DNA from: Megasphaera sp. NM10
Lineage (GTDB): Bacteria > Bacillota > Negativicutes > Veillonellales > Megasphaeraceae
NCBI RefSeq assembly: GCF_000417505.1
Contig: NZ_APHY01000007.1
Location: forward strand, 1-55,540
DNA: 55,540 nucleotides
Direction: 5' to 3'
The notes below the pieces were generated by a model. The model searched no databases. It saw nothing but the letters and a program-made list of their open reading frames with translations, and was not told the origin of the DNA. This document shows, one piece after another, positions 11,437 through 53,754 of the stretch (position 1 is the first letter of the stretch; the number at the start of each line of letters is the position of its first letter). Position numbers and translations under genes: made by a program.

Positions 11437-12233
11437 GGTTCCGTCTCCTGACCGATGTGGTCGCCGTACTGCTGGTCCTCCGGCGCCGCCTGGCGGCAGC
11501 CGTGGGTAAAGGCCGGATGATACAAAAGGCTGCGGTCATAAGCCGGCCCCAGCACCTTGCCGACGACGATGAGAGCCGTCTTGGAAATGGCATGGCGCCG
11601 GGCCGTTTCAGCCAGGGTGCCGACCGTGCAGGTATAAGTCTGTTCTTCTGGCCATGATGCTTTGTAGACGATGGCTGCCGGCGTATCTGCCGCATAGCCG
11701 CCGCGCAGGAGTTCGGCCTGGAGGCCGTCCAAGAGGGATGCGCTGAGGAAAATGACCATCGTCGCCTGATGAGCGGCGTAATCGGCGATTTTCTGCTTAT
11801 CCGGCACGGGCGTCCGCCCTTCCATGCGGGTGATGATGACCGACTGGCTGATGCCCGGCAGGGTATATTCGGCCTGGAGGGACGCGGCAGCGGCACAGAA
11901 GGAGCTGACACCGGGTACGACGTCATAGGCGATGCCCTTCTGGGCGAGGATGTCCATCTGCTCGCGGATGGCGCCATAGACTGATGGATCGCCCGTATGC
12001 AGGCGGACGGTCATCCAGCCCTGGCCCTCCCCTTCTTCCATGGCCGCCACGACGGCTTCCAACGTCATGCCGGCGCTGTCGAGGATGCGGCAGCCTTCTT
12101 TGGCACAGGCCAGCAGCTGTGGGTTGACCAGGGAGCCGGCGTAAATAATCTGGTCCGCTGTTTCCAGTAATTTCTGGCCGCGGACGGTAATGAGGTCGAC
12201 AGCACCGGGACCGGCGCCGACAAAGTGTATCAT
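11433..12233 (-). CDS. cbiF: Cobalt-precorrin-4 C11-methyltransferase
   Basis: CbiF methylates C11 using S-adenosylmethionine. The 266-residue protein has the tetrapyrrole methylase start IHFVGAGPGAVDLITVRG, then IIYAGSLVNPQLL, LHTGDPSVYGAIREQ and VVPGVSSFCAAAASL. ITRMEGRTPVP is typical of CbiF/CobM. It overlaps both neighbours (cbiD and cbiG) by 4 bp, so the three are probably translationally coupled. Confidence 0.95.
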   Translation of the reverse strand: MIHFVGAGPGAVDLITVRGQKLLETADQIIYAGSLVNPQLLACAKEGCRILDSAGMTLEAVVAAMEEGEGQGWMTVRLHTGDPSVYGAIREQMDILAQKGIAYDVVPGVSSFCAAAASLQAEYTLPGISQSVIITRMEGRTPVPDKQKIADYAAHQATMVIFLSASLLDGLQAELLRGGYAADTPAAIVYKASWPEEQTYTCTVGTLAETARRHAISKTALIVVGKVLGPAYDRSLLYHPAFTHGCRQAAPEDQQYGDHIGQETEP

Positions 12234-13366
12234 CGTAGTTCCCCCTTCGTATGCAATGCAAGAAATTCTTTGGCCCGCGACGTCAGGCCCAGGACGCCGT
12301 AGGCATTGGAAAAGACGACGGCCGCCGTCGGGATTTCACCATGGGTCCGCTGGTCCATATAGGCCTCGATTTTCTCACAGACTGCGGCCATGACCGGTTC
12401 CAGCAGGTTTTGTTCCTTCAGCAGGCGCACGGCTTCATCCGTCGTCAGGCTGTCGTAAATCTGACGGGCCAGCTGCCGTGAGGCACCGGCAAAGACGGCT
12501 TCCAGGGCCAGGAGGGTCGTGCGGCCGTCGGCATAATGGGAATGGGTATTCATGATGCCTTGGGCGACTTTGACCAATTTGCCGATATGGCCGATGACCA
12601 GGACGTCGGAAAAGCCTTTGTAGGCGGCATAATCAAGGGTTTCGCCGACATAGTTGCTGATGGTCACGCGCTGGCTGACGTCGACGCCCAGATGGTCGCG
12701 GCTGAAATCGACGCCGTAATTGCCGAAAAAGGCCAATAAATGGGTCTGGCCGGCAGCGCGGCGGGAATCCATTTCCGTATGGATCGTATCGACCAGGGCC
12801 TGTTCACTCATAGGGTCGACGATGCCCGACGTCCCCAGGACGGACAGGCCGCCGACGATGCCCAGGCGCGGGTTGAAGGTCTTCTGGGCCAGGCGCTGGC
12901 CCTCGGGGATGGACAAGTTCAGGCGCAGGCCGCCCGTATAGCCGCACTGCCGGCAAGCCGCTTGCAGGGCTTCGGTAATCATGCGGCGCGGCACGGGGTT
13001 GATGGCCCAATCGCCGACGGCACAGGCCAGGCCGGGCTGGGTCACGCGGCCGACGCCGATGCCGCCGACAATGGACAGGCCGGACGGCGTCTTTTCGACG
13101 GTCCCGCAGACCAGCATGCCGTCAGTGATATCCGGGTCGTCGCCACTGTCCTTGCGGATGGCGCACGTCGCCGACTGGGGACCGAAAGAGACGTCTTCCG
13201 GGATGAGCTGGAGGACCGTCCCCTGCGGCGTCTGCAAGGATATGGCTTCGACGCGGCGCCCGGTCAGGACCATGATGGCCGCCGCCTTGGCCGCCGCGGC
13301 CGCACAGGACCCGGTCGTATAGCCGCAGCGCATTTTCTTCCCTTCTTTGACCGTGAATAGTGACAT
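12230..13366 (-). CDS. cbiD: Cobalt-precorrin-5B C1-methyltransferase
   Basis: CbiD methylates C1 in the anaerobic corrin pathway. The 378-residue protein carries the signature LRCGYTTGSCAAAAAKAA-like stretch (as MRCGYTTGSC near residue 12), GGIGVGRVTQPGL, GTSGIVDPMSE, FGNYGVDFSRDH and VIGHIGKLVKVAQG. Start 13366 was chosen because GGAGAAATATACC precedes it. It opens the biosynthetic part of the cluster, 119 bp after the ABC ATPase gene. Confidence 0.95.
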   Translation of the reverse strand: MSLFTVKEGKKMRCGYTTGSCAAAAAKAAAIMVLTGRRVEAISLQTPQGTVLQLIPEDVSFGPQSATCAIRKDSGDDPDITDGMLVCGTVEKTPSGLSIVGGIGVGRVTQPGLACAVGDWAINPVPRRMITEALQAACRQCGYTGGLRLNLSIPEGQRLAQKTFNPRLGIVGGLSVLGTSGIVDPMSEQALVDTIHTEMDSRRAAGQTHLLAFFGNYGVDFSRDHLGVDVSQRVTISNYVGETLDYAAYKGFSDVLVIGHIGKLVKVAQGIMNTHSHYADGRTTLLALEAVFAGASRQLARQIYDSLTTDEAVRLLKEQNLLEPVMAAVCEKIEAYMDQRTHGEIPTAAVVFSNAYGVLGLTSRAKEFLALHTKGELR

Positions 13367-13485: not shown

Positions 13486-14262
13486 TCATTGCAACACAAC
13501 GATGGCCGAACGGCCGTCACTGGTGGTGACGATGTCGGTCCGGACGGAAAAGACGTCCCAAAGCCGTTCCGGTGTGAGGACGGCCTGGGGTGGTCCCGTA
13601 CAGACCAGGGCTCCGTCTTTCATGATGACGACTTCGTCGGCATATTGCCAGGCCTGATTCATGTCGTGCAGGACGACGACGATGGTCTTCTGCCAGCCCT
13701 CATTGATGCGGCGCAGGAGGTCGAGGATGCGCAGCTGGTGGTGCACATCGAGATACGTCGTCGGTTCGTCCAGCAAGAGTATGGGCGCATCCTGGGCCAG
13801 CAAGACGGCCAGCCAGGCCCGCTGCTGTTCGCCGCCAGAGAGGTGCTGCATGACCTCGCCAGCATAGGCTTCGAGGCCGACGGCCTGGATGGCCCGGTCG
13901 ACGGCGTCCCGGTCTTCCCGGCTCCGGCCGCTCCAGAGACGGCGGTAAGGAAAGCGCCCCATGCCGACTAAGTCGCGGACGGTCACATCAGGCGGCACGT
14001 CATGGGTCTGGGTCAGGAAGGCCATTTCCCGCGACAAGGCCTTACGGGAAAAATCATGGACCTCGCGCTGACCCAGGCGGATAGAGCCGCTGGCTGCGGG
14101 AATCATGCAGTTCACGGCCTTGAGGAAGGTGCTCTTGCCGCAGCCGTTGGGGCCGATGATGGCTGTCACCTTCCCTTTGGGCAGGGCTACGCTGAAATTA
14201 TGGAGGATGGTCCGCCGACCGCGCCGGACGACGAGGTGCTGGACGGTAATGGCATCAGCCAT
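13486..14262 (-). CDS. ABC transporter ATPase, FecE/BtuD type
   Basis: This is the 258-residue ATPase of an iron-complex or vitamin B12 type importer. It has Walker A GPNGCGKST (near residue 37), the Q-loop region AFLTQTHDVP, signature LSGGEQQRAW, Walker B ILLLDEPTTYLD and the switch His in VVLHDMNQA. It is 3 bp from the permease gene and last in the receptor-binding-protein-permease-ATPase order. Because the cluster follows a cobalamin riboswitch and precedes corrin genes, the substrate is probably a corrinoid. A siderophore substrate cannot be excluded from sequence alone. Confidence 0.92.
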   Translation of the reverse strand: MADAITVQHLVVRRGRRTILHNFSVALPKGKVTAIIGPNGCGKSTFLKAVNCMIPAASGSIRLGQREVHDFSRKALSREMAFLTQTHDVPPDVTVRDLVGMGRFPYRRLWSGRSREDRDAVDRAIQAVGLEAYAGEVMQHLSGGEQQRAWLAVLLAQDAPILLLDEPTTYLDVHHQLRILDLLRRINEGWQKTIVVVLHDMNQAWQYADEVVIMKDGALVCTGPPQAVLTPERLWDVFSVRTDIVTTSDGRSAIVVLQ

Positions 14263-14265
14263 GGC

Positions 14266-15261
14266 TCACACTTCCTTCCGCAGGAGAAATAAGAAAAAGG
14301 GCGCCCCTATAAAGGCCATGATGATGCCTACGGGCAATTCGGCCGGTGCCAGGATGAGCCGGGCCGCCGTATCGCTCAAGGTCACAGTCGCCACGCCGAA
14401 GATGGCCGAACCAGGGATGATGTAGCGGTAATCGGACCCGACCAGGAGGCGCACGATATGTGGCACGATGAGGCCGACGAAGCCCAGCAGACCGGCAACG
14501 CTGACAGCGCTGGCAGCCAGCAGGGCGGCGACGGCCGACAGGCCCAGGCGGGCGCCTTCGACAGACAGGCCCAGGCTGCGGGCCATATCATCGCCGAGCT
14601 GGAGCAGGTTGAGATAATAGGCGCCGACAGCTGATAAAGCCAGGCCGATGACCGTATACGGTGCGATGGCCGTCACGTCTTTCCAGCTGCTGGCCGCCAG
14701 GCCGCCGACCATCCACAGCAGGGCTCCGTGGACGCGGTCGCTGTAAAAGATGAGGATGCCCGAAATGATGGCCCCCAGAAAGGCCGACACGGCGACGCCG
14801 GCCAGGATGATGCGGACAGGCACGATGCCGTCTTTCCAGGCCAGGAGGTAAATGACGGCGGCTGCGGCCATGGCGCCGATGAAGGCTACAGGCGTCATCC
14901 AGAAGAGATAAGCCGGCCAGACGATGAGGACGACGATACCGGCCAGGCCGGCGCCGGCTGAAATGCCGATGATATGCGGGTCGGCCAGGGGATTGCGCAT
15001 GACGGCCTGGAGGATGGCACCGGACAAGGCCAGGTTAGCCCCGACCAGGGCTCCTGTCAGCGTCCGGGGCAGGCGGATATTCCAGATGATCTGATCCGCC
15101 GTCCGGGCCGACGGCTGCCAGAGGATCTGCAGGACATCGGCCGGCGTAATGGCGGCAACGCCCTGCATGACCGACAGCAGGCAGCCTCCCAGGGCCAGGA
15201 GGACAAAGACAGCCAGCATGAGCCAGCGCCAGCGGGTCCGATAGCAGCCTTCCCTATTCAT
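14266..15261 (-). CDS. ABC transporter permease, FecCD/BtuC family
   Basis: This is a 331-residue, highly hydrophobic protein of the FecCD family with about ten membrane segments. Characteristic stretches are IRLPRTLTGALVGANLALSG (near residue 62), MRNPLADPHIIGISAGAG, LGFVGLIVPHIVRLLVG and LPVGIIMAFIGAPFF at the end. It overlaps the binding-protein gene by 8 bp. It would carry corrinoid across the inner membrane. Confidence 0.94.
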   Translation of the reverse strand: MNREGCYRTRWRWLMLAVFVLLALGGCLLSVMQGVAAITPADVLQILWQPSARTADQIIWNIRLPRTLTGALVGANLALSGAILQAVMRNPLADPHIIGISAGAGLAGIVVLIVWPAYLFWMTPVAFIGAMAAAAVIYLLAWKDGIVPVRIILAGVAVSAFLGAIISGILIFYSDRVHGALLWMVGGLAASSWKDVTAIAPYTVIGLALSAVGAYYLNLLQLGDDMARSLGLSVEGARLGLSAVAALLAASAVSVAGLLGFVGLIVPHIVRLLVGSDYRYIIPGSAIFGVATVTLSDTAARLILAPAELPVGIIMAFIGAPFFLFLLRKEV

Positions 15262-16210
15262 GAGCCGACTCCGGATAGACGAGCCGGGCCATATAGGCTA
15301 CGGCCTTGGGGTAGTCCAGGCCCGGATTGAGGAGGAAGTATTTTTCCGGCAGGACATAGACCTGGCCCGCCTTGACGGCCGTCAGGGCGGCCCAGGCCGG
15401 ATTGCCCTGGATATCTTCGCGGATGCGTTTTTCAATCTTATCGGACGACCCCATGGAGGTCAGGAAAATGACATCCGGGTCGGCCTGGACCAGGCTTTCC
15501 ATACTGTAGGGGATGCGCGTCGTCTGGCCGTCGCCAGCGGCATCGGCAGCGATATTCTTCAAGTGCAGGAGATCCGCCATGTCGCCGGCAATACTCGACG
15601 GCAATTCGGCCGATACGGAACTGGGTGTCACGTGGAGGATGGCGACCCGTTTCCCCTGGACCGGTACGGCATCGGTAACAGCATGGACGGCCTGGTCCAG
15701 TTCGTCTTCCTTGGCCTTGGCTGCCTCTTCTTTGCCATAGACCTTGCCGATGACCTCAAGGTTGCGCTTAACGTCGTCATAGGTCTTGGTCTTGAGGACC
15801 AGGACCGGGATGTGGCTCTCTTCCAACTGGGCCGCCAATTTTTCGTGGTGGTCAGCGCTGGCAATGACTAAATCGGGCTGGCAGGCCAGGACCTTTTCCA
15901 GGCTCACGTTGTAGACAGGTCCGACGTCCGGCACATGCTGATATTTTTCCGGCAGCGATGCATCTTCGGCTTTGACCGTCGCCCGGCCGGCCAGGTCGCC
16001 GTCGACGGCAGCGGCGAAGTTGAGGAGCGATGTCGACAAGACGACGACGCGCTGCGGTTTCTGAGCCAGAGTGACGACCGTTCCCCGGTCATCGGTCACG
16101 ACGGCATAGGCCCCGGACGAGCCGCTGCTTTGGCTAGCGTCGTTCTGAGGCGCACAGCCCGTAAGCAGGACCAGACAAAAAGCGACGATGAGCAGACAAA
16201 TTTTTTTCAC
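15254..16210 (-). CDS. Periplasmic corrinoid-binding lipoprotein, BtuF/FecB-like
   Basis: This is a 318-residue class III binding protein. The signal peptide ends in a lipobox LLTGC, so it should be lipid-anchored at Cys19. After it come TDDRGTVVTLAQKPQRVVVL, LEKVLACQPDLVIAS and late QVYVLPEKYFLLNPG, the usual bilobed PF01497 pattern. It lies 14 bp after the receptor gene and overlaps the permease. It would hand substrate from the outer-membrane receptor to the FecCD/FecE-type importer. Confidence 0.92.
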   Translation of the reverse strand: MKKICLLIVAFCLVLLTGCAPQNDASQSSGSSGAYAVVTDDRGTVVTLAQKPQRVVVLSTSLLNFAAAVDGDLAGRATVKAEDASLPEKYQHVPDVGPVYNVSLEKVLACQPDLVIASADHHEKLAAQLEESHIPVLVLKTKTYDDVKRNLEVIGKVYGKEEAAKAKEDELDQAVHAVTDAVPVQGKRVAILHVTPSSVSAELPSSIAGDMADLLHLKNIAADAAGDGQTTRIPYSMESLVQADPDVIFLTSMGSSDKIEKRIREDIQGNPAWAALTAVKAGQVYVLPEKYFLLNPGLDYPKAVAYMARLVYPESAHE

Positions 16211-16224
16211 CGTAAAGGCACCTC

Positions 16225-18582
16225 CTAAAACTTTCTCTTTACGCCGACCTGCCAGTTGCGCCCGGCAGACGGATAATTATGGTACAAATCATAAGCCTCG
16301 TCGTTGAGATTGTTGACTTTGGCATACACGATCGTCGCCGCATCAGGCGAATACGACGCGCCGACATTCCAGACGACGTAGGAATTATTGCGGTAATACG
16401 TATCGTTGCGCCCGGTCCCGGCGGTCATATCGGCATTGGCCTGCCATTTGCCGTTGTGATAATGGACACCGGCATGATAGCCGTTGGGCTGATTATAGGT
16501 CGTATCGAAGGCCAGGCCTTCCCCTTTGTCCACTTTCGTGCGGATGTAGGAATAACCTGCTTCATAGTCCCATTTATCGTTGACTTTCTGCTTCCACGTC
16601 AGCTCGAAGCCTCGCTTGTCTTCTTCATCGAGGTTCTCTACTTCGTGGTATGTCGGATTTGATCGGTCCCAGCGGATGACGTGCTGCAAGTTGCTGTGGA
16701 AGATGCTGCCTTCGATGTTCGTCTTGGGACCAGCCTGATACTGGAAGCCCAAAGTCTGGGTATAGCCTTCTTCGGGCTGGAGATTTTCGTTGCCCTGCGA
16801 CGTAATCCCGCGGGACGTCGTCACATAGAACTGGTCGTTCAGGCGGGGCGGCGAAAAGACGCGGCTCCACGAGGCGTAGACGTTGAAGGCGTCATTGGCC
16901 TTGTAATTCATGGCCAGGCGCGGCGTCTGGTGCGTCCCAAAAGTGCTATTCCGGTCCCAGCGCAGACCCGGCGTGACCGTGAATTTGCCGAACGTCAGGG
17001 CATCTTCGGCATAGAAAGCCTGATTATGACGTTTTTTGTCGATATAATGGGCTTCATAATTGGTCCCCATATCTTCCGTCCATTCGGCACCGGCCGTCAG
17101 ATGCTGGTGCGGGCCGAGCTGCCAGTTATCCCGCCACTCCAAGCCCTGGGTGCGGGTGAAATAATGATTGGACCAGTACGTCCGCTGGTAATCGTTGAAA
17201 TAGCGCAAAAAGCCTGGCTGAGCCGTTTCTTTCTTGAAATGATAGGTCACACTGTAGTCGTTGATCAGGCGGTCGATAGGCTTATTGGCCGTCAGGTACC
17301 AGCCCGCCGGGTCGGCTTTATACGTCGAACCGTGGCCGTGATAATCTTGATGATAGGCCTTCACGGTCAGGGACGTATGGTCCGTCAGGTCCTGGTCCAG
17401 CCGCAAGGATAAGGACTTCCTGGCAATATCGCCGCGGGAATGGTCCGTATTGGCTCCGTGAGGAAAGGCATAGTATGCCCGCTGCTCCAGGTCGCCGCTG
17501 ACGAGCCAGCTCGTCGCGCCAGCCCGGCCGCTGTGGGTCAGGGTATAGCCGTGCATCCCCCAGGAACCGGTGTAGGCATAGAGGGAAGATTCGCGGCGGT
17601 CCCCCTTCTTGGTAACGATATTGATGACGCCGCCGACAGCGCCGCTGCCGTAGCGCACGGAGCCGCTGCCCTTAGTGACTTCGATGTGGTCGATAGCCCC
17701 GACACCGGGCAGGCTGGTCAAATCGACGCTGCCCCGGCCATAGCCGGAGCCCTGGGCATTGGCCAGACTCTGACCGTCGACGAGGATCAGGACCCGGTCG
17801 TCACCATTGAGCTTGACATAAGAAGAGATGCCAGGCACCATTTCATTGACGGTCACGCCGGTGACGCGCTGCAAGGCCTGCTGGACCGTCGTATCGTGAT
17901 GGCTTTCCATATCCTTGGCCGTAATGACTGTCGTGTTGGACTGATTGGGTGGGATGGTTGGTGTAGGTGGTTGCATCTTTGCTTCCGATAACTTTACAGG
18001 TAGTTTTTCCCGAATGGCATCGAGGACGTCGGCGACGGCATCGGGTACGTGCAGATTCCCGGCCGGCGCGGCGGCCTCATCCTTTCCCGGCCCGGCAGCC
18101 CAGCCGCGGCCGCCGGCTGCTGAACCCGTATGGCCGCTGAGACGTTCTGTCCCAGCCTGGGCCGACGGCTGGGAGCCCTTTGCCGCACCCTTTACAGAGG
18201 GCTCCCCTTTGCCGCTTTCCGTCTTGGCTGCATAAGTCATCCCATCGGCACCGGCTTCATCCGGATCAGGCGACGCAACATCGGAGGCTGCCACAGCCCT
18301 GTCCGAAGATTCCGGGGATTCCGGTCCTTCCGGTCCCCTATCACGGCCATCCGGCTGAGAAACACGGCCCTCATCCGTATCGGTGCCAGCCGCGTCGTGA
18401 CCGCCGGCACCGGCCAGGTCGTCGGCGTTATAGACCATGACGCCGGTTACGCCGTCCTGGCGGGTGTAATGATGGATCAGCGTGAAAAAACCGCCAGCTG
18501 CCAGGGCCAGATAGACGGCGACGTGGAGCGATACGGAAACGCCGGCAGCGACGCGGCCCCGTCGTTTTTCCCAGGGCTTCAT
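16225..18582 (-). CDS. TonB-dependent outer-membrane receptor with TonB-type N-terminal anchor
   Basis: The 785-residue product has three parts. Residues 1-40 are basic (KRRGR) followed by a membrane segment with SVSLH at 16-20. This places Ser16 and His20 exactly as in TonB, where they contact ExbB/ExbD. Residues ~41-215 are a low-complexity Gly/Ala/Asp/Ser/Pro linker. From ~217 there is a normal receptor: a TonB-box-like TTVITA, a plug (VQQALQRVTGV, VKLNGDDRVLILVDGQ, YGSGAVGGVINIVTKKG) and a barrel ending in WQVGVKRKF with terminal Phe. The TonB C-terminal domain is absent. It overlaps exbD by 4 bp, in the place where tonB is usually found. Cobalamin uptake is inferred from the riboswitch. 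Alternatively the N-terminus is only an unusual signal peptide (ALA-A site at 26-29). Confidence 0.85.
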   Translation of the reverse strand: MKPWEKRRGRVAAGVSVSLHVAVYLALAAGGFFTLIHHYTRQDGVTGVMVYNADDLAGAGGHDAAGTDTDEGRVSQPDGRDRGPEGPESPESSDRAVAASDVASPDPDEAGADGMTYAAKTESGKGEPSVKGAAKGSQPSAQAGTERLSGHTGSAAGGRGWAAGPGKDEAAAPAGNLHVPDAVADVLDAIREKLPVKLSEAKMQPPTPTIPPNQSNTTVITAKDMESHHDTTVQQALQRVTGVTVNEMVPGISSYVKLNGDDRVLILVDGQSLANAQGSGYGRGSVDLTSLPGVGAIDHIEVTKGSGSVRYGSGAVGGVINIVTKKGDRRESSLYAYTGSWGMHGYTLTHSGRAGATSWLVSGDLEQRAYYAFPHGANTDHSRGDIARKSLSLRLDQDLTDHTSLTVKAYHQDYHGHGSTYKADPAGWYLTANKPIDRLINDYSVTYHFKKETAQPGFLRYFNDYQRTYWSNHYFTRTQGLEWRDNWQLGPHQHLTAGAEWTEDMGTNYEAHYIDKKRHNQAFYAEDALTFGKFTVTPGLRWDRNSTFGTHQTPRLAMNYKANDAFNVYASWSRVFSPPRLNDQFYVTTSRGITSQGNENLQPEEGYTQTLGFQYQAGPKTNIEGSIFHSNLQHVIRWDRSNPTYHEVENLDEEDKRGFELTWKQKVNDKWDYEAGYSYIRTKVDKGEGLAFDTTYNQPNGYHAGVHYHNGKWQANADMTAGTGRNDTYYRNNSYVVWNVGASYSPDAATIVYAKVNNLNDEAYDLYHNYPSAGRNWQVGVKRKF

Positions 18583-18992
18583 GGCTGGCCTCCCTTGTCG
18601 GCGGCCAGGCCGATGTGGGCGATACCGGCCCGCTTGAAGGCATCGAGGACGTCGGCGACCTGACCGTAATCGAGGCCCCGGTCGGCGCAGAGGACGACGC
18701 TGAAAGCGCTGTCCTGACGCTGCTGGTCCCGAGCCGAAGCCAGGAGCTCATCGGCCTTGACGGGCTGTCCGTTGAGCCACAGGGACCCATCGGCCTTCAA
18801 GGTCACGACGTACTGGGCCGACGGCTGGGCCTGGGCGGCCGAAGCCCGCGGCAGCTGGACGCCGAGGCTGTGCAAATCGACCATGGACAAGGAGGTCATC
18901 ATGAAGAAGACCAGCAAAAAGAACATGATGTCGATCATGGGGATGATCATAATCGACGGCTGTTCAAAATCGCGAATATTACGGAGGCGCAT
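18579..18992 (-). CDS. exbD: ExbD-like proton-channel subunit
   Basis: ExbD works with ExbB to feed proton-motive force to TonB. The 137-residue protein begins MRLRNIRDFEQ, then has one membrane segment MIIPMIDIMFFLLVFFM carrying the conserved Asp, and a periplasmic domain with VVLCADRGLDYGQVADVLDA. The start at 18992 follows the exbB stop by 2 bp. The last 4 bp overlap the receptor gene. Confidence 0.92.
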   Translation of the reverse strand: MRLRNIRDFEQPSIMIIPMIDIMFFLLVFFMMTSLSMVDLHSLGVQLPRASAAQAQPSAQYVVTLKADGSLWLNGQPVKADELLASARDQQRQDSAFSVVLCADRGLDYGQVADVLDAFKRAGIAHIGLAADKGGQP

Positions 18993-18994
18993 GG

Positions 18995-19609
18995 TCACTG
19001 CCCCGCTTTCACAGGCATCGTTTCCAATGCGGAAAAACACATTTCCATATCCGTAATGATGCGGTCCAGGCGCTGGGTGAAATAAGAATGGACGGCCAGG
19101 GCCAGGATGGCGACGCAGAGGCCGAAAGCCGTGGCGATGAGCGCTTCGCCGACGCCGCCGGTAATGGCCACGGCCTGGCCGGACTGGACATTGAGGATGC
19201 TGAAAGAGCGGATCATGCCGCTGATCGTCCCCAAGAGGCCCAGGAGCGGCGCCATGGTGACGATGACGCTCAGATAGTAGAGACGGCGGCGCAGTTTGGC
19301 CACGAAGATGCCCGACTGCATTTCGACGAAGGCCTTGACGTCAGGACCTGCCTGATGCTGAAAGACATCCTGCAAAATGAGGGGCAGGCCGCCGCGGCCG
19401 TCCATGGCCAAGCGCTGGGCCTGGTCGTAGCGCCGCAGCTTCATCTGCGTGTAGAATTGTTCGGCAAAGGCTTTCCCGGCGTCCATGTCTCCATAGAAAA
19501 TCGCCCGTTCGATGCCAATGTAGCCGACGAAGAGAGAACAGGCCAGGAGCAGGTACATGACCGACCCGCCTGCCTGAAATAACTGAAAACCCTGTAAAAT
19601 CGCTTCCAA
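18995..19609 (-). CDS. exbB: ExbB-like proton-channel subunit (MotA/TolQ/ExbB family)
   Basis: ExbB is the multi-span inner-membrane partner of ExbD. The protein is about 204 residues, with membrane segments near VMYLLLACSLFVGYIGI, LYYLSVIVTMAPLLGLLGT and GVGEALIATAFGLCVAILAL; the last two carry the family motif. I chose the TTG at 19609 because AGGAGGG lies 4 bp upstream of it. The ATG at 19660 would put the start inside the riboswitch terminator. It is the first gene after the riboswitch. Confidence 0.88.
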   Translation of the reverse strand: MEAILQGFQLFQAGGSVMYLLLACSLFVGYIGIERAIFYGDMDAGKAFAEQFYTQMKLRRYDQAQRLAMDGRGGLPLILQDVFQHQAGPDVKAFVEMQSGIFVAKLRRRLYYLSVIVTMAPLLGLLGTISGMIRSFSILNVQSGQAVAITGGVGEALIATAFGLCVAILALAVHSYFTQRLDRIITDMEMCFSALETMPVKAGQ

Positions 19610-19652: not shown

Positions 19653-19687
19653 AAAATCAAAAGGAGCCGTCTTGTAGCGACAGCTCC
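19653..19687 (-). terminator. Riboswitch expression-platform terminator
   Basis: On the minus strand GGAGC..GTC and GAC..GCTCC (19687-19679 and 19671-19663) form a 9-bp stem with one G-T pair, followed by TTTTGATTTT. It lies between the cobalamin aptamer and exbB and should stop transcription when the vitamin is bound. Confidence 0.8.
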
Positions 19688-19734
19688 CTTACGTATCTTT
19701 TTTACAATCTCCTTCCTATCGCTCGCAGGTCTAT

Positions 19735-19905
19735 CGGTGATTATCCGTCAGGCAGTTCTTCTGGCTTGGCTTCCTGGCCATGGCTGCGCCTTCCCATACT
19801 TCGTACAGTGACATCGTTGCAGCCTGGCTCCACCCTACAGCGGCGGGACCGCGCCGGCATTGGACCGGCTTCTCTATTGAGTCTATGACACCTGACCTAT
19901 TTCAA
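19735..19905 (-). promoter_or_regulatory. Cobalamin riboswitch
   Basis: The minus strand shows the ordered cobalamin-aptamer blocks. These are a GCCGGTCCAATGCCGGCG hairpin region, GCGGTCCCGCCGCTGTAG, GTCACTG and GTATGGGAAGGC, then an AGCCA...AAGCCAGAAGAACTGCCTG B12-box region. It precedes exbB-exbD-receptor-importer-cbi genes and is followed by a terminator, so it is probably an OFF switch for both corrinoid uptake and synthesis. The assignment is by pattern; covariance was not scored. Confidence 0.9.
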
Positions 19906-19918
19906 ACTTACAAACATA

Positions 19919-51048: not shown

Positions 51049-51633
51049 TTAATTGTTAGATTGTTCGTAATCTGTTACGCCCCTAGCAATAGCCCGGGCA
51101 ATGTCGTCCCAATGCTCTACTAACACCAACATGTCATCATCATTGTCGATAAAAGCCGTTTCGACTAAGACGGCAGGCATATCTGTATACCGTAGTACCA
51201 GCAAGTCTGTCATTTCTTTTACGCCTCTATCGACAGTATCAATGCTGTTGATGAGTTGCGATTGGATGCACTGAGCTAAATTGCCTCCGTTACTCATCCG
51301 GTTATAGCACTCAACCTCGGTGCCGCGAGCAGTGCCCGAAGCGGCGTTACAGTGGATGCTGACAAAAATATCAGCGCCCCATTCGTTAGCGGTTTCAGTA
51401 ACAGTCATACCTTGGCGATCATCATAGTCGCTACGCCCTGCCGGCGTCGGTGCTAAATTGTCGCTTTGCATTAAATAACTTTCACAGCCAGCCGCTTCAA
51501 GATATTTTTGTACAGCAGTACCGATTTTTGCTGCTACATCGCATTCGCGCAAATCTACATTTCCATTCGTGTCATAATGCACCGCACCACTATCATACTT
51601 AATATCATGGCCCGGATTGATAAATACCTTCAT
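51049..51633 (-). CDS. N-acetylmuramoyl-L-alanine amidase (Amidase_3), phage endolysin
   Basis: The 194-residue protein is a single Amidase_3 zinc hydrolase that cuts the peptide from the glycan. Metal ligands are visible in INPGHDIKYDSG (His at 9), RECDVAAKI (Glu) and VSIHCNAA (His near 94), with the catalytic Glu in VLVETAFIDN (near 158). It has no signal peptide and no cell-wall-binding domain. It overlaps the holin gene by 4 bp, the usual holin-endolysin pair. Confidence 0.92.
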   Translation of the reverse strand: MKVFINPGHDIKYDSGAVHYDTNGNVDLRECDVAAKIGTAVQKYLEAAGCESYLMQSDNLAPTPAGRSDYDDRQGMTVTETANEWGADIFVSIHCNAASGTARGTEVECYNRMSNGGNLAQCIQSQLINSIDTVDRGVKEMTDLLVLRYTDMPAVLVETAFIDNDDDMLVLVEHWDDIARAIARGVTDYEQSNN

Positions 51634-52728: not shown

Positions 52729-53754
52729 ATGCGTAATCCTAACGGATACGGATGTATCAAAAAATTGCCTGGGAAGCGGCGGCGGCCGTTTGTCTTTGTA
52801 GTGACGGAGGCGGGGCGACAAAAGCCGGTCGAATATTTTACAAATCTGGTTGACGCTCAAGTTTTCCAGGCGGACTATCATCGTGCTCATCATCATCGCT
52901 CCCTTCCAGGTCACAAAATAACATTCGCCGAGCTCTATCACCGCTGGCTACCACGGCATACGGAGGATACTCAGCCATCACAATCAACGCTGGACAGCTA
53001 TCGCAATGCGTATCAGCATCTATCTACGCTCCACGGGATGCCCGTCGAGGAGCTGCGCTATGCTGATTATCAGCGAGTCATTGACGACATGCGTAGTCAT
53101 GGGCTGTCTTACAGCAGCGTCAAAAAGGTCCGGTCGCTTATATCGCTATTGCTCAAATATGCAAACAAAATCGATCTGTCTACGACCAACTACGCGCCGC
53201 TGCTCTCTATCGGCCGCAATAAGCCGGTCCGGCCACACCATACTTTCAGCCGGCAGAAAATCAACCGGCTATGGGCGGCCGTGGATCGCCCCGGTGTCGA
53301 TACCGTGCTAATTTTGCTATATACCGGGATGCGCTGCGGTGAGATGCTACAGCTGCAAAAAGCTGACGTCCATCTGCGCCAACGTTATGTCCGCATCACG
53401 AAGAGCAAGACGGCCGCCGGCATCCGCATCATCCCAATACATCATCGCATTGCGCCGCTCATCGAGTCCCGCATGAAAAGCCCAGGTGACGCCCTCATCT
53501 GTGATGGGGACGGCCGACCATACAACTATGGACGGTACTGCACCATCTGGCGGTCGGTTATGCATCTCATCCGGGCCAATGGCCATACTACGCACGATTG
53601 CCGGCACACGGTCGCAACGCTGCTTGATAATGCCGGAGCAAACGAGACGGCAAAACGCCGCATCCTCGGCCATGCTGGAGGCGACATCACAGAGCGCGTC
53701 TACACGCACAAAAACCTGCGACAGCTCCGTAAATGCATCGAATTACTCAAATAA
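52729..53754 (+). CDS. Tyrosine recombinase, candidate tail-fibre invertase
   Basis: This is a 341-residue complete tyrosine recombinase. An N-terminal DNA-binding region (~1-60) leads to a core-binding helical domain (~65-165, FAELYHRWLPRH, LDSYRNAYQHLS). The catalytic domain has Arg in TGMRCGEML, Lys in TKSKTAAGI, HDCRHTVAT (H-x-x-R), His in LGHAGGD and Tyr in ERVYTH. It lies between the tail and lysis genes, reads against them, and is not at the expected integrase end. With the inverted tail-fibre cassettes 0.4 kb downstream, a DNA-inversion role like Rci is more likely than integration. AGGTGGTAAA precedes the ATG. Confidence 0.85.
   Translation: MRNPNGYGCIKKLPGKRRRPFVFVVTEAGRQKPVEYFTNLVDAQVFQADYHRAHHHRSLPGHKITFAELYHRWLPRHTEDTQPSQSTLDSYRNAYQHLSTLHGMPVEELRYADYQRVIDDMRSHGLSYSSVKKVRSLISLLLKYANKIDLSTTNYAPLLSIGRNKPVRPHHTFSRQKINRLWAAVDRPGVDTVLILLYTGMRCGEMLQLQKADVHLRQRYVRITKSKTAAGIRIIPIHHRIAPLIESRMKSPGDALICDGDGRPYNYGRYCTIWRSVMHLIRANGHTTHDCRHTVATLLDNAGANETAKRRILGHAGGDITERVYTHKNLRQLRKCIELLK

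Follow-up and report, generated by a model that had tools for sequence, protein, structure and literature searches.

The DNA analysed here is a stretch of 55,540 nucleotides from contig NZ_APHY01000007.1 of Megasphaera sp. NM10 (the window), which carries on its minus strand a gene for a TonB-type membrane anchor fused to a BtuB-like TonB-dependent receptor. The gene occupies positions 16225 to 18582 and forms one intact frame of 785 codons, which begins with ATG at 18582, runs down to 16225 and encodes 785 amino acids; the first-pass annotation of this DNA had given the same interval, where an open frame does exist, but its strand had to be corrected to minus. The preceding gene, exbD, follows exbB and ends at 18579, overlapping the fused gene by 4 bases (ATGA), and the earlier remark that the gene follows exbB-exbD in the place of tonB was borne out, since in related operons in which the two proteins are encoded separately a tonB gene stands at this position. 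Pfam placed a plug domain (PF07715) at residues 215-319 (17626..17940) and a receptor barrel (PF00593) at residues 352-759, which we take to extend to the C-terminal Phe785 (16228..17529), so that the receptor is complete in plug and barrel as had been claimed. Both domains were found in all five fused proteins that we identified in the family, while Pfam detected the TonB C-terminal domain (TonB_C) in none of the five, the window's protein included, which agrees with the annotation; a separate TonB used as positive control was recognized with an E value of 5.5e-17. The best NCBIfam match of the fused receptor was the BtuB equivalog TIGR01779 (E 1e-45), although its cut-off was not reached (156.4 against 599.7 bits), and the matches among sequences of solved structures in the PDB were the colicin I receptor and BtuB; the N-terminal 55 residues had no meaningful match among such sequences. 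We thus confirmed that a TonB-type anchor segment and a receptor lie in one reading frame.

To characterize the N-terminus, we took residues 1-62 of six TonBs that related operons encode as separate genes, leaving out the divergent TonB of genome G005, and ran the resulting profile against 1051 proteins and open reading frames from the window and the collected loci. It matched all five fused proteins with E values from 2.4e-12 to 1.6e-9, whereas none of nine separate receptors was matched at E<=10; the further matches below 1e-5 were a TonB-like open reading frame of a Megamonas locus, the second-locus TonB of G015, two open reading frames of Selenomonas loci, and a contig-edge piece of a fused gene (L078). 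The likeness of this N-terminus to TonB is therefore far beyond chance. It comprises a predicted membrane helix at residues 11-35 (18478..18552, minus strand) in which the pattern S-x3-H-x6-L, that is Ser16, His20 and Leu27 in the window's protein, is kept in all five fused proteins. The S-x3-H part is also present in six of the seven separate TonBs that adjoin a receptor, the G005 TonB being the exception. The annotation had aligned residues 1-28 with what we take, apart from Ser16 and His20, to be the corresponding letters of E. coli TonB; the Ser16/His20 part of that match holds in all five fused proteins, but Arg7 and Arg8 show no conservation among the homologues, which leaves the arginines little weight. 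The segment is indeed TonB-like, but residue 28 is not its limit, as the likeness extends to about residue 56 and includes a stretch behind the helix that aligns with the D-box region of TonB in the five fused proteins. This D-box-like stretch, at residues 46-52 (18427..18447, minus strand), reads TGVMVYN in the window's protein, GTVTVYN without gaps in G004 and TDVMIYN in G009, and it aligns with VDVTVYN of the separate TonB of M. cerevisiae (G001), in which the D-box pattern is complete. Ser16 and His20 of TonB are reported to touch ExbB (PMC12215075) and the D-box to bind ExbD (PMC10907165).

Between this region and the plug lies a low-complexity, presumably periplasmic linker rich in glycine, alanine, serine, aspartate and proline, which we delimited by composition (evaluated over residues 46-200), identity and gaps to residues 57-205 (17968..18414, minus strand). 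It contains 11-14 prolines in 155 residues and few hydrophobic residues, a composition that looks more like a flexible tether than a stiff rod, and over residues 57-173 the five fused proteins show only 37% identity with 24% of the alignment cells gapped. At its end, where separate receptors carry their Ton box, is a conserved pre-plug segment (residues 174-200; 17983..18063, minus strand) with the consensus AP-G-IHVPDAVAD-LDA in the five fused proteins. A simple Ton box pattern found no match in the four fused proteins on which it was run, and none was seen by eye in the fifth (G002); the same pattern recovered a Ton box in 9 of the 15 separate receptors with a readable N-terminus (that of L058 could not be assessed), and the six that it missed have by eye weaker boxes or none, so that the test is a loose one. 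The fused form hence has neither a TonB C-terminal domain, nor a separate receptor signal peptide, nor a recognizable Ton box.

The distribution of the fused and the split form was followed in a family set of 17 genomes, the window's own (G000) included. The receptor is fused in five of them, G000, G002, G004, G006 and G009, three of which correspond to named matches, Veillonellaceae bacterium Marseille-P2974 (G004), M. massiliensis NP3 (G006) and Megasphaera sp. MJR8396C (G009). A separate gene with a TonB_C domain lies between exbD and the receptor in seven (G001, G005, G011, G012, G013, G015 and G016), a placement taken from coordinates, with both genes read for all of these but G016. By coordinates, the receptor has neither exbD nor TonB_C beside it in four (G003, G007, G008 and G014), and no part of the system was found in G010, a genome that is 82% complete. 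In the split operon of M. cerevisiae, TonB is a protein of 258 residues (its TonB_C match being the positive control above) and the receptor starts with its own signal-peptide-like segment followed by the Ton box DTIIVRA. Relatives with a plain signal peptide lacking S-x3-H had been named in the annotation as evidence that would speak against an anchor; the unfused receptors that we read do start in this way, but the S-x3-H of the fused proteins matches the separate TonB of these relatives. In a tree of plug plus barrel with 14 rows, from which G003 and G016 were left out and in which the rows of G005 and G015 sit on long branches, the five fused proteins group together (97/97). Their frames are intact in five assemblies, one of them a single contig (G002), and range from 769 to 808 amino acids. 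In Anaeroglobus geminatus (L012/L058), the match to the receptor gene is split in two close to where the plug begins (C5:14040-15632 and 15622-15765), as if the gene were frameshifted by mutation or sequencing error.

We compared how strongly the parts of the five fused genes are constrained, using amino-acid identity and the ratio of nonsynonymous to synonymous differences per site (pN/pS), which is a rough measure here since synonymous sites are near saturation. The helix at residues 11-35 (identity 0.84, pN/pS 0.15) is as constrained as the plug (0.87 and 0.15), and the barrel follows (0.80 and 0.21); the values are 0.71 and 0.28 for residues 2-56 as a whole, 0.54 and 0.43 for the pre-plug segment, and 0.37 and 0.68 for the linker at residues 57-173. 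The control values of pN/pS were 0.42 for the btuF signal peptide of these five species and 0.59 for the signal peptide of four separate receptors. The strong constraint on the helix favours a kept function, but by itself it does not discriminate between an anchor and a signal peptide.

A separate tonB elsewhere in the window's genome had been suggested as something to look for, and no TonB C-terminal domain was found there. Both G000 and G002, the latter in one contig, contain a single plug protein and a single ExbD each, and neither contains TonB_C by PF03544 or by TIGR01352 at E<=10, whereas the positive controls G001 and G013 were matched. We had initially counted three such fused genomes, but the third, G006, was removed from the count because in its second tonB (L076, 368-1492, M. 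massiliensis) a stretch of N covers the C-terminal part, either an assembly gap or masking, which explains why the automated search returned no TonB_C match. Between G000 and G002, exbB and exbD are under purifying selection (0.23 and 0.17). Where ExbBD is retained but no TonB C-terminal domain is left, the motor still requires a partner, and we saw no candidate other than the fused protein.

The surroundings of the gene look like a B12-regulated operon for corrinoid uptake. A cobalamin riboswitch (RF00174, 99.6 bits) lies upstream of exbB at 19734..19910, on the minus strand like exbB and exbD themselves, and RF00174 was found in all eight named loci searched (L051-L058). The exbB gene spans 18995..19609 (PF01618, MotA_ExbB, E 2.6e-26), its start being set by comparison with a homologue while the longest frame opens at 19660, and exbD spans 18579..18992, encoding 137 amino acids from its ATG, with the longest frame opening at 19040 (PF02472, E 1.7e-27). 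Downstream follow a btuF-like gene for a periplasmic binding lipoprotein (15254..16210; PF01497, E 1.2e-37), a btuC-like permease gene of the FecCD family (14266..15261; PF01032, E 5.2e-93) and, judged from its translation only (GPNGCGKST, LSGGEQQR), a gene for a btuD-like ATP-binding protein (13486..14262), all on the minus strand. Riboswitch, binding lipoprotein, FecCD permease and ATP-binding cassette ATPase together make the assignment of the operon likely, and a corrinoid is the substrate that we would infer for the fused receptor. Beyond the btuFCD-like genes, the translations between 5024 and 13366 on the same strand read as corrinoid biosynthesis proteins of the cbi/cob type, including a CbiD-like one at 12230-13366, and the source organism may thus both make and import corrinoids.

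Taken together, we consider it likely that the gene encodes a natural fusion of TonB and a corrinoid receptor, shared by a few gut bacteria (Megasphaera), an uncleaved single-chain TonB-BtuB that passes the force of ExbBD directly to its own plug. The suggestion in the first-pass annotation that one chain might tie ExbBD to the outer-membrane receptor gains support from the single group of five species, the split operons, the missing modules, the selection on the anchor and the two genomes that keep ExbBD without TonB_C. According to this model, the N-terminal helix would stay in the inner membrane as a TonB anchor, docked on ExbB by Ser16 and His20, and the D-box-like stretch would be offered to ExbD; the flexible linker of about 150 residues would cross the periplasm, and the C-terminal 570 residues would fold as a plug inside an outer-membrane barrel. 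Force from ExbBD would then travel along the linker to the N-terminal edge of the plug and remodel it, whereupon the bound corrinoid would enter the periplasm for BtuF and BtuCD. In force spectroscopy of BtuB, pulling on the Ton box is reported to unfold the plug over its first half (PMC5413942), and in the fused protein the pull would reach the plug through the backbone. The reversible, non-covalent contact that TonB normally makes through its C-terminal domain and the Ton box would be unneeded and lost; since a covalent link makes both redundant, their absence supports the fusion reading. Only slightly less firmly, we favour the view that this is one polypeptide integral to both membranes, a permanent covalent force line to the plug, Ton-powered with neither a TonB C-terminal domain nor a Ton box. 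Loading of the receptor would have to be sensed otherwise than by exposure of the Ton box, for example by linker tension or through the conserved pre-plug segment.

Several observations weigh against such an uncleaved anchor, and many of them fit an explanation that we regard as unlikely but worth weighing, namely that the TonB-derived N-terminus is a cleavable signal peptide which serves export only, is cut by signal peptidase I, and leaves a receptor that works with another TonB or passively. The fused helix ends in a small-x-small site, A26-L27-A28 in the window's protein and Gly-x-Ala in G006 and G009, and cleavage by signal peptidase is therefore possible on sequence grounds. Export must at least be started by the anchor, as the fusion carries no further export signal. 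The best mean hydrophobicity over 19 residues, 1.63-1.93 for the five fused helices, lies inside the range of 1.09-1.95 given by the N-termini of nine separate receptors and is lower than in any of the six separate TonBs measured (2.09-2.57); as a means of telling an anchor from a signal peptide, this measure gives the anchor no support and was dropped. In four separate TonBs, where the helix must be an anchor, its pN/pS is 0.40, no lower than the 0.42 of the btuF signal peptide, and the fused proteins show the hydrophobic/hydrophilic D-box pattern of PMC10907165 only in part. Three of the five fused species (G004, G006 and G009) own a second exbD-tonB locus, by coordinates near further plug proteins, of which G004 and G009 have two each; the one further receptor read in each of these two (L019 and L022) has a signal-peptide-like start and the usual Ton box KDVVVTATR. 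The Ton box pattern also misses 6 of 15 separate receptors, including that of G011, which has an adjoining TonB, and a permanently joined TonB has no obvious means of sensing substrate loading. Finally, no sign of expression was found: a caecal proteome that listed 83 M. elsdenii proteins contained, in the part of the paper accessible to us, TonB-dependent receptors only from Bacteroidetes, although the strain may or may not carry the fusion (PMC11204068). The signal peptide explanation, however, leaves the receptor with no recognizable Ton box for another TonB to hold, and in G000 and G002 no TonB_C was found that could do so. The helix is more constrained than in both control sets of signal peptides, with S-x3-H-x6-L in five of five, and it is followed by a D-box-like stretch that a signal peptide does not need. 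Moreover, the helices of the six profile TonBs end in LAAGG, LAASG, LAAAG or LSAAG, very similar to the fused helix end, and these TonBs must stay uncut to work.

If the anchor is retained at first, the chain might still enter both membranes and then be cut in the linker, yielding an inner-membrane stub and a free receptor, with the fusion serving co-production or co-location. Proteases could attack the linker, given its length, its few hydrophobic residues and its weak conservation; however, the stub would have no C-terminal domain and the receptor no recognizable Ton box, which leaves them no known joint mode of action, and the linker alignment revealed no conserved site by eye, no dedicated search for protease sites having been made. 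We therefore think this improbable. Still less probable, in our judgement, is that ExbBD and the N-terminus serve another role, for instance receptor placement or envelope tethering, while corrinoid entry needs no Ton energy. Being fixed in both membranes, the chain would indeed tether them as well, and the want of a recognizable Ton box would suit this idea, but the plug is strongly conserved, the operon is under a cobalamin riboswitch and includes btuF- and btuC-like genes further downstream, and exbB and exbD keep purifying selection. As for a sequencing or assembly error, a decayed operon or a one-off, nothing beyond the odd architecture speaks for it, and we rejected it as next to impossible, given five assemblies, one of them a single contig, with intact frames in one tree group and purifying selection on both ends of the fused gene.

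Compared with known systems, the uncleaved single-chain TonB-BtuB that we favour combines features of two proteins. Like TonB of E. coli and of M. cerevisiae and its relatives, it has an N-terminal S-x3-H anchor, a D-box-like stretch and a low-complexity periplasmic linker, and like the separate tonB of M. cerevisiae its gene follows exbD with a 4-base overlap; unlike TonB, it has no TonB_C, and the linker leads into a receptor instead. With BtuB it shares plug and barrel, TIGR01779 as best match (below the cut-off), the PDB matches, a cobalamin riboswitch and btuF- and btuC-like genes downstream, but in contrast to BtuB it lacks a separate signal peptide and a recognizable Ton box and is longer by about 205 TonB-type residues at its N-terminus. 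The split exbB-exbD-tonB-receptor operons of Megasphaera relatives (L006-L009, L014 and L049) agree with the fused one in gene order and receptor family, and in the three that were searched as named records (L054, L055 and L056) also in the riboswitch; they differ in making TonB and receptor as two proteins. Transducer receptors of the FpvA/FecA type and SusC-type receptors resemble the fused protein in having an extra domain before the plug, but their N-terminal extensions lie in the periplasm after a signal peptide, with the Ton box retained, and we know of no receptor of either type with an inner-membrane anchor. Each part of the fused protein is known, while the joining of a TonB anchor to a receptor is new to our knowledge.

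A natural covalent link would separate two open questions, namely by what means TonB passes on force and to what extent its cycle needs reversible binding to the Ton box. If the fused protein transports, binding and release at the outer membrane would be dispensable, and the plug could be opened by the motor side alone. Anchoring in both membranes would further raise the question of how the beta-barrel assembly machinery (BAM) can insert a barrel while the inner membrane holds its N-terminus. The fixed one-to-one complex would also suit structural studies of a system that is difficult to capture.

The N-terminal segment was also sought in receptors of other Negativicutes, as the annotation had proposed. 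The five fused genomes were the only ones with matches starting at residues 1-4, both among 61 genomes of the order, searched to E 1e-30, and among 380 genomes of the class; the class search was limited to E 1e-70 and to at most two scored candidates per genome, so that fusions in other receptor types could be missed. Independent fusions elsewhere in the class were considered and rejected: nine of the ten other matches with frames of at least 710 were read, and all begin in the ordinary way with a segment resembling a signal peptide and contain a Ton-box-like stretch, which reads VVTA in seven and IEVTA and FVITA in the other two. The tenth, G126, equals G125 in frame and identity. As to the literature, no description of a TonB-receptor fusion appeared among the titles and abstract beginnings of the open full-text papers listed, a collection that mostly leaves out subscription papers and thus gives no proof that the fusion is unpublished. 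A 2025 evolutionary survey of force transducers covers Ton systems in Negativicutes and reports TolB-Pal fusions, and its passages on 'fusion' or 'fused' contain none between TonB and a receptor (PMC12204202).

Elsewhere in the window, the translations between 19945 and 27231 on the minus strand read as a type IV pilus or type II secretion system, with two ATPases, an inner-membrane protein and prepilin-like proteins. Near the contig end, a tyrosine-integrase-like gene (52729-53754, plus strand) and an amidase-like gene (51049-51633, minus strand), both judged from their translations, are possibly a prophage remnant.

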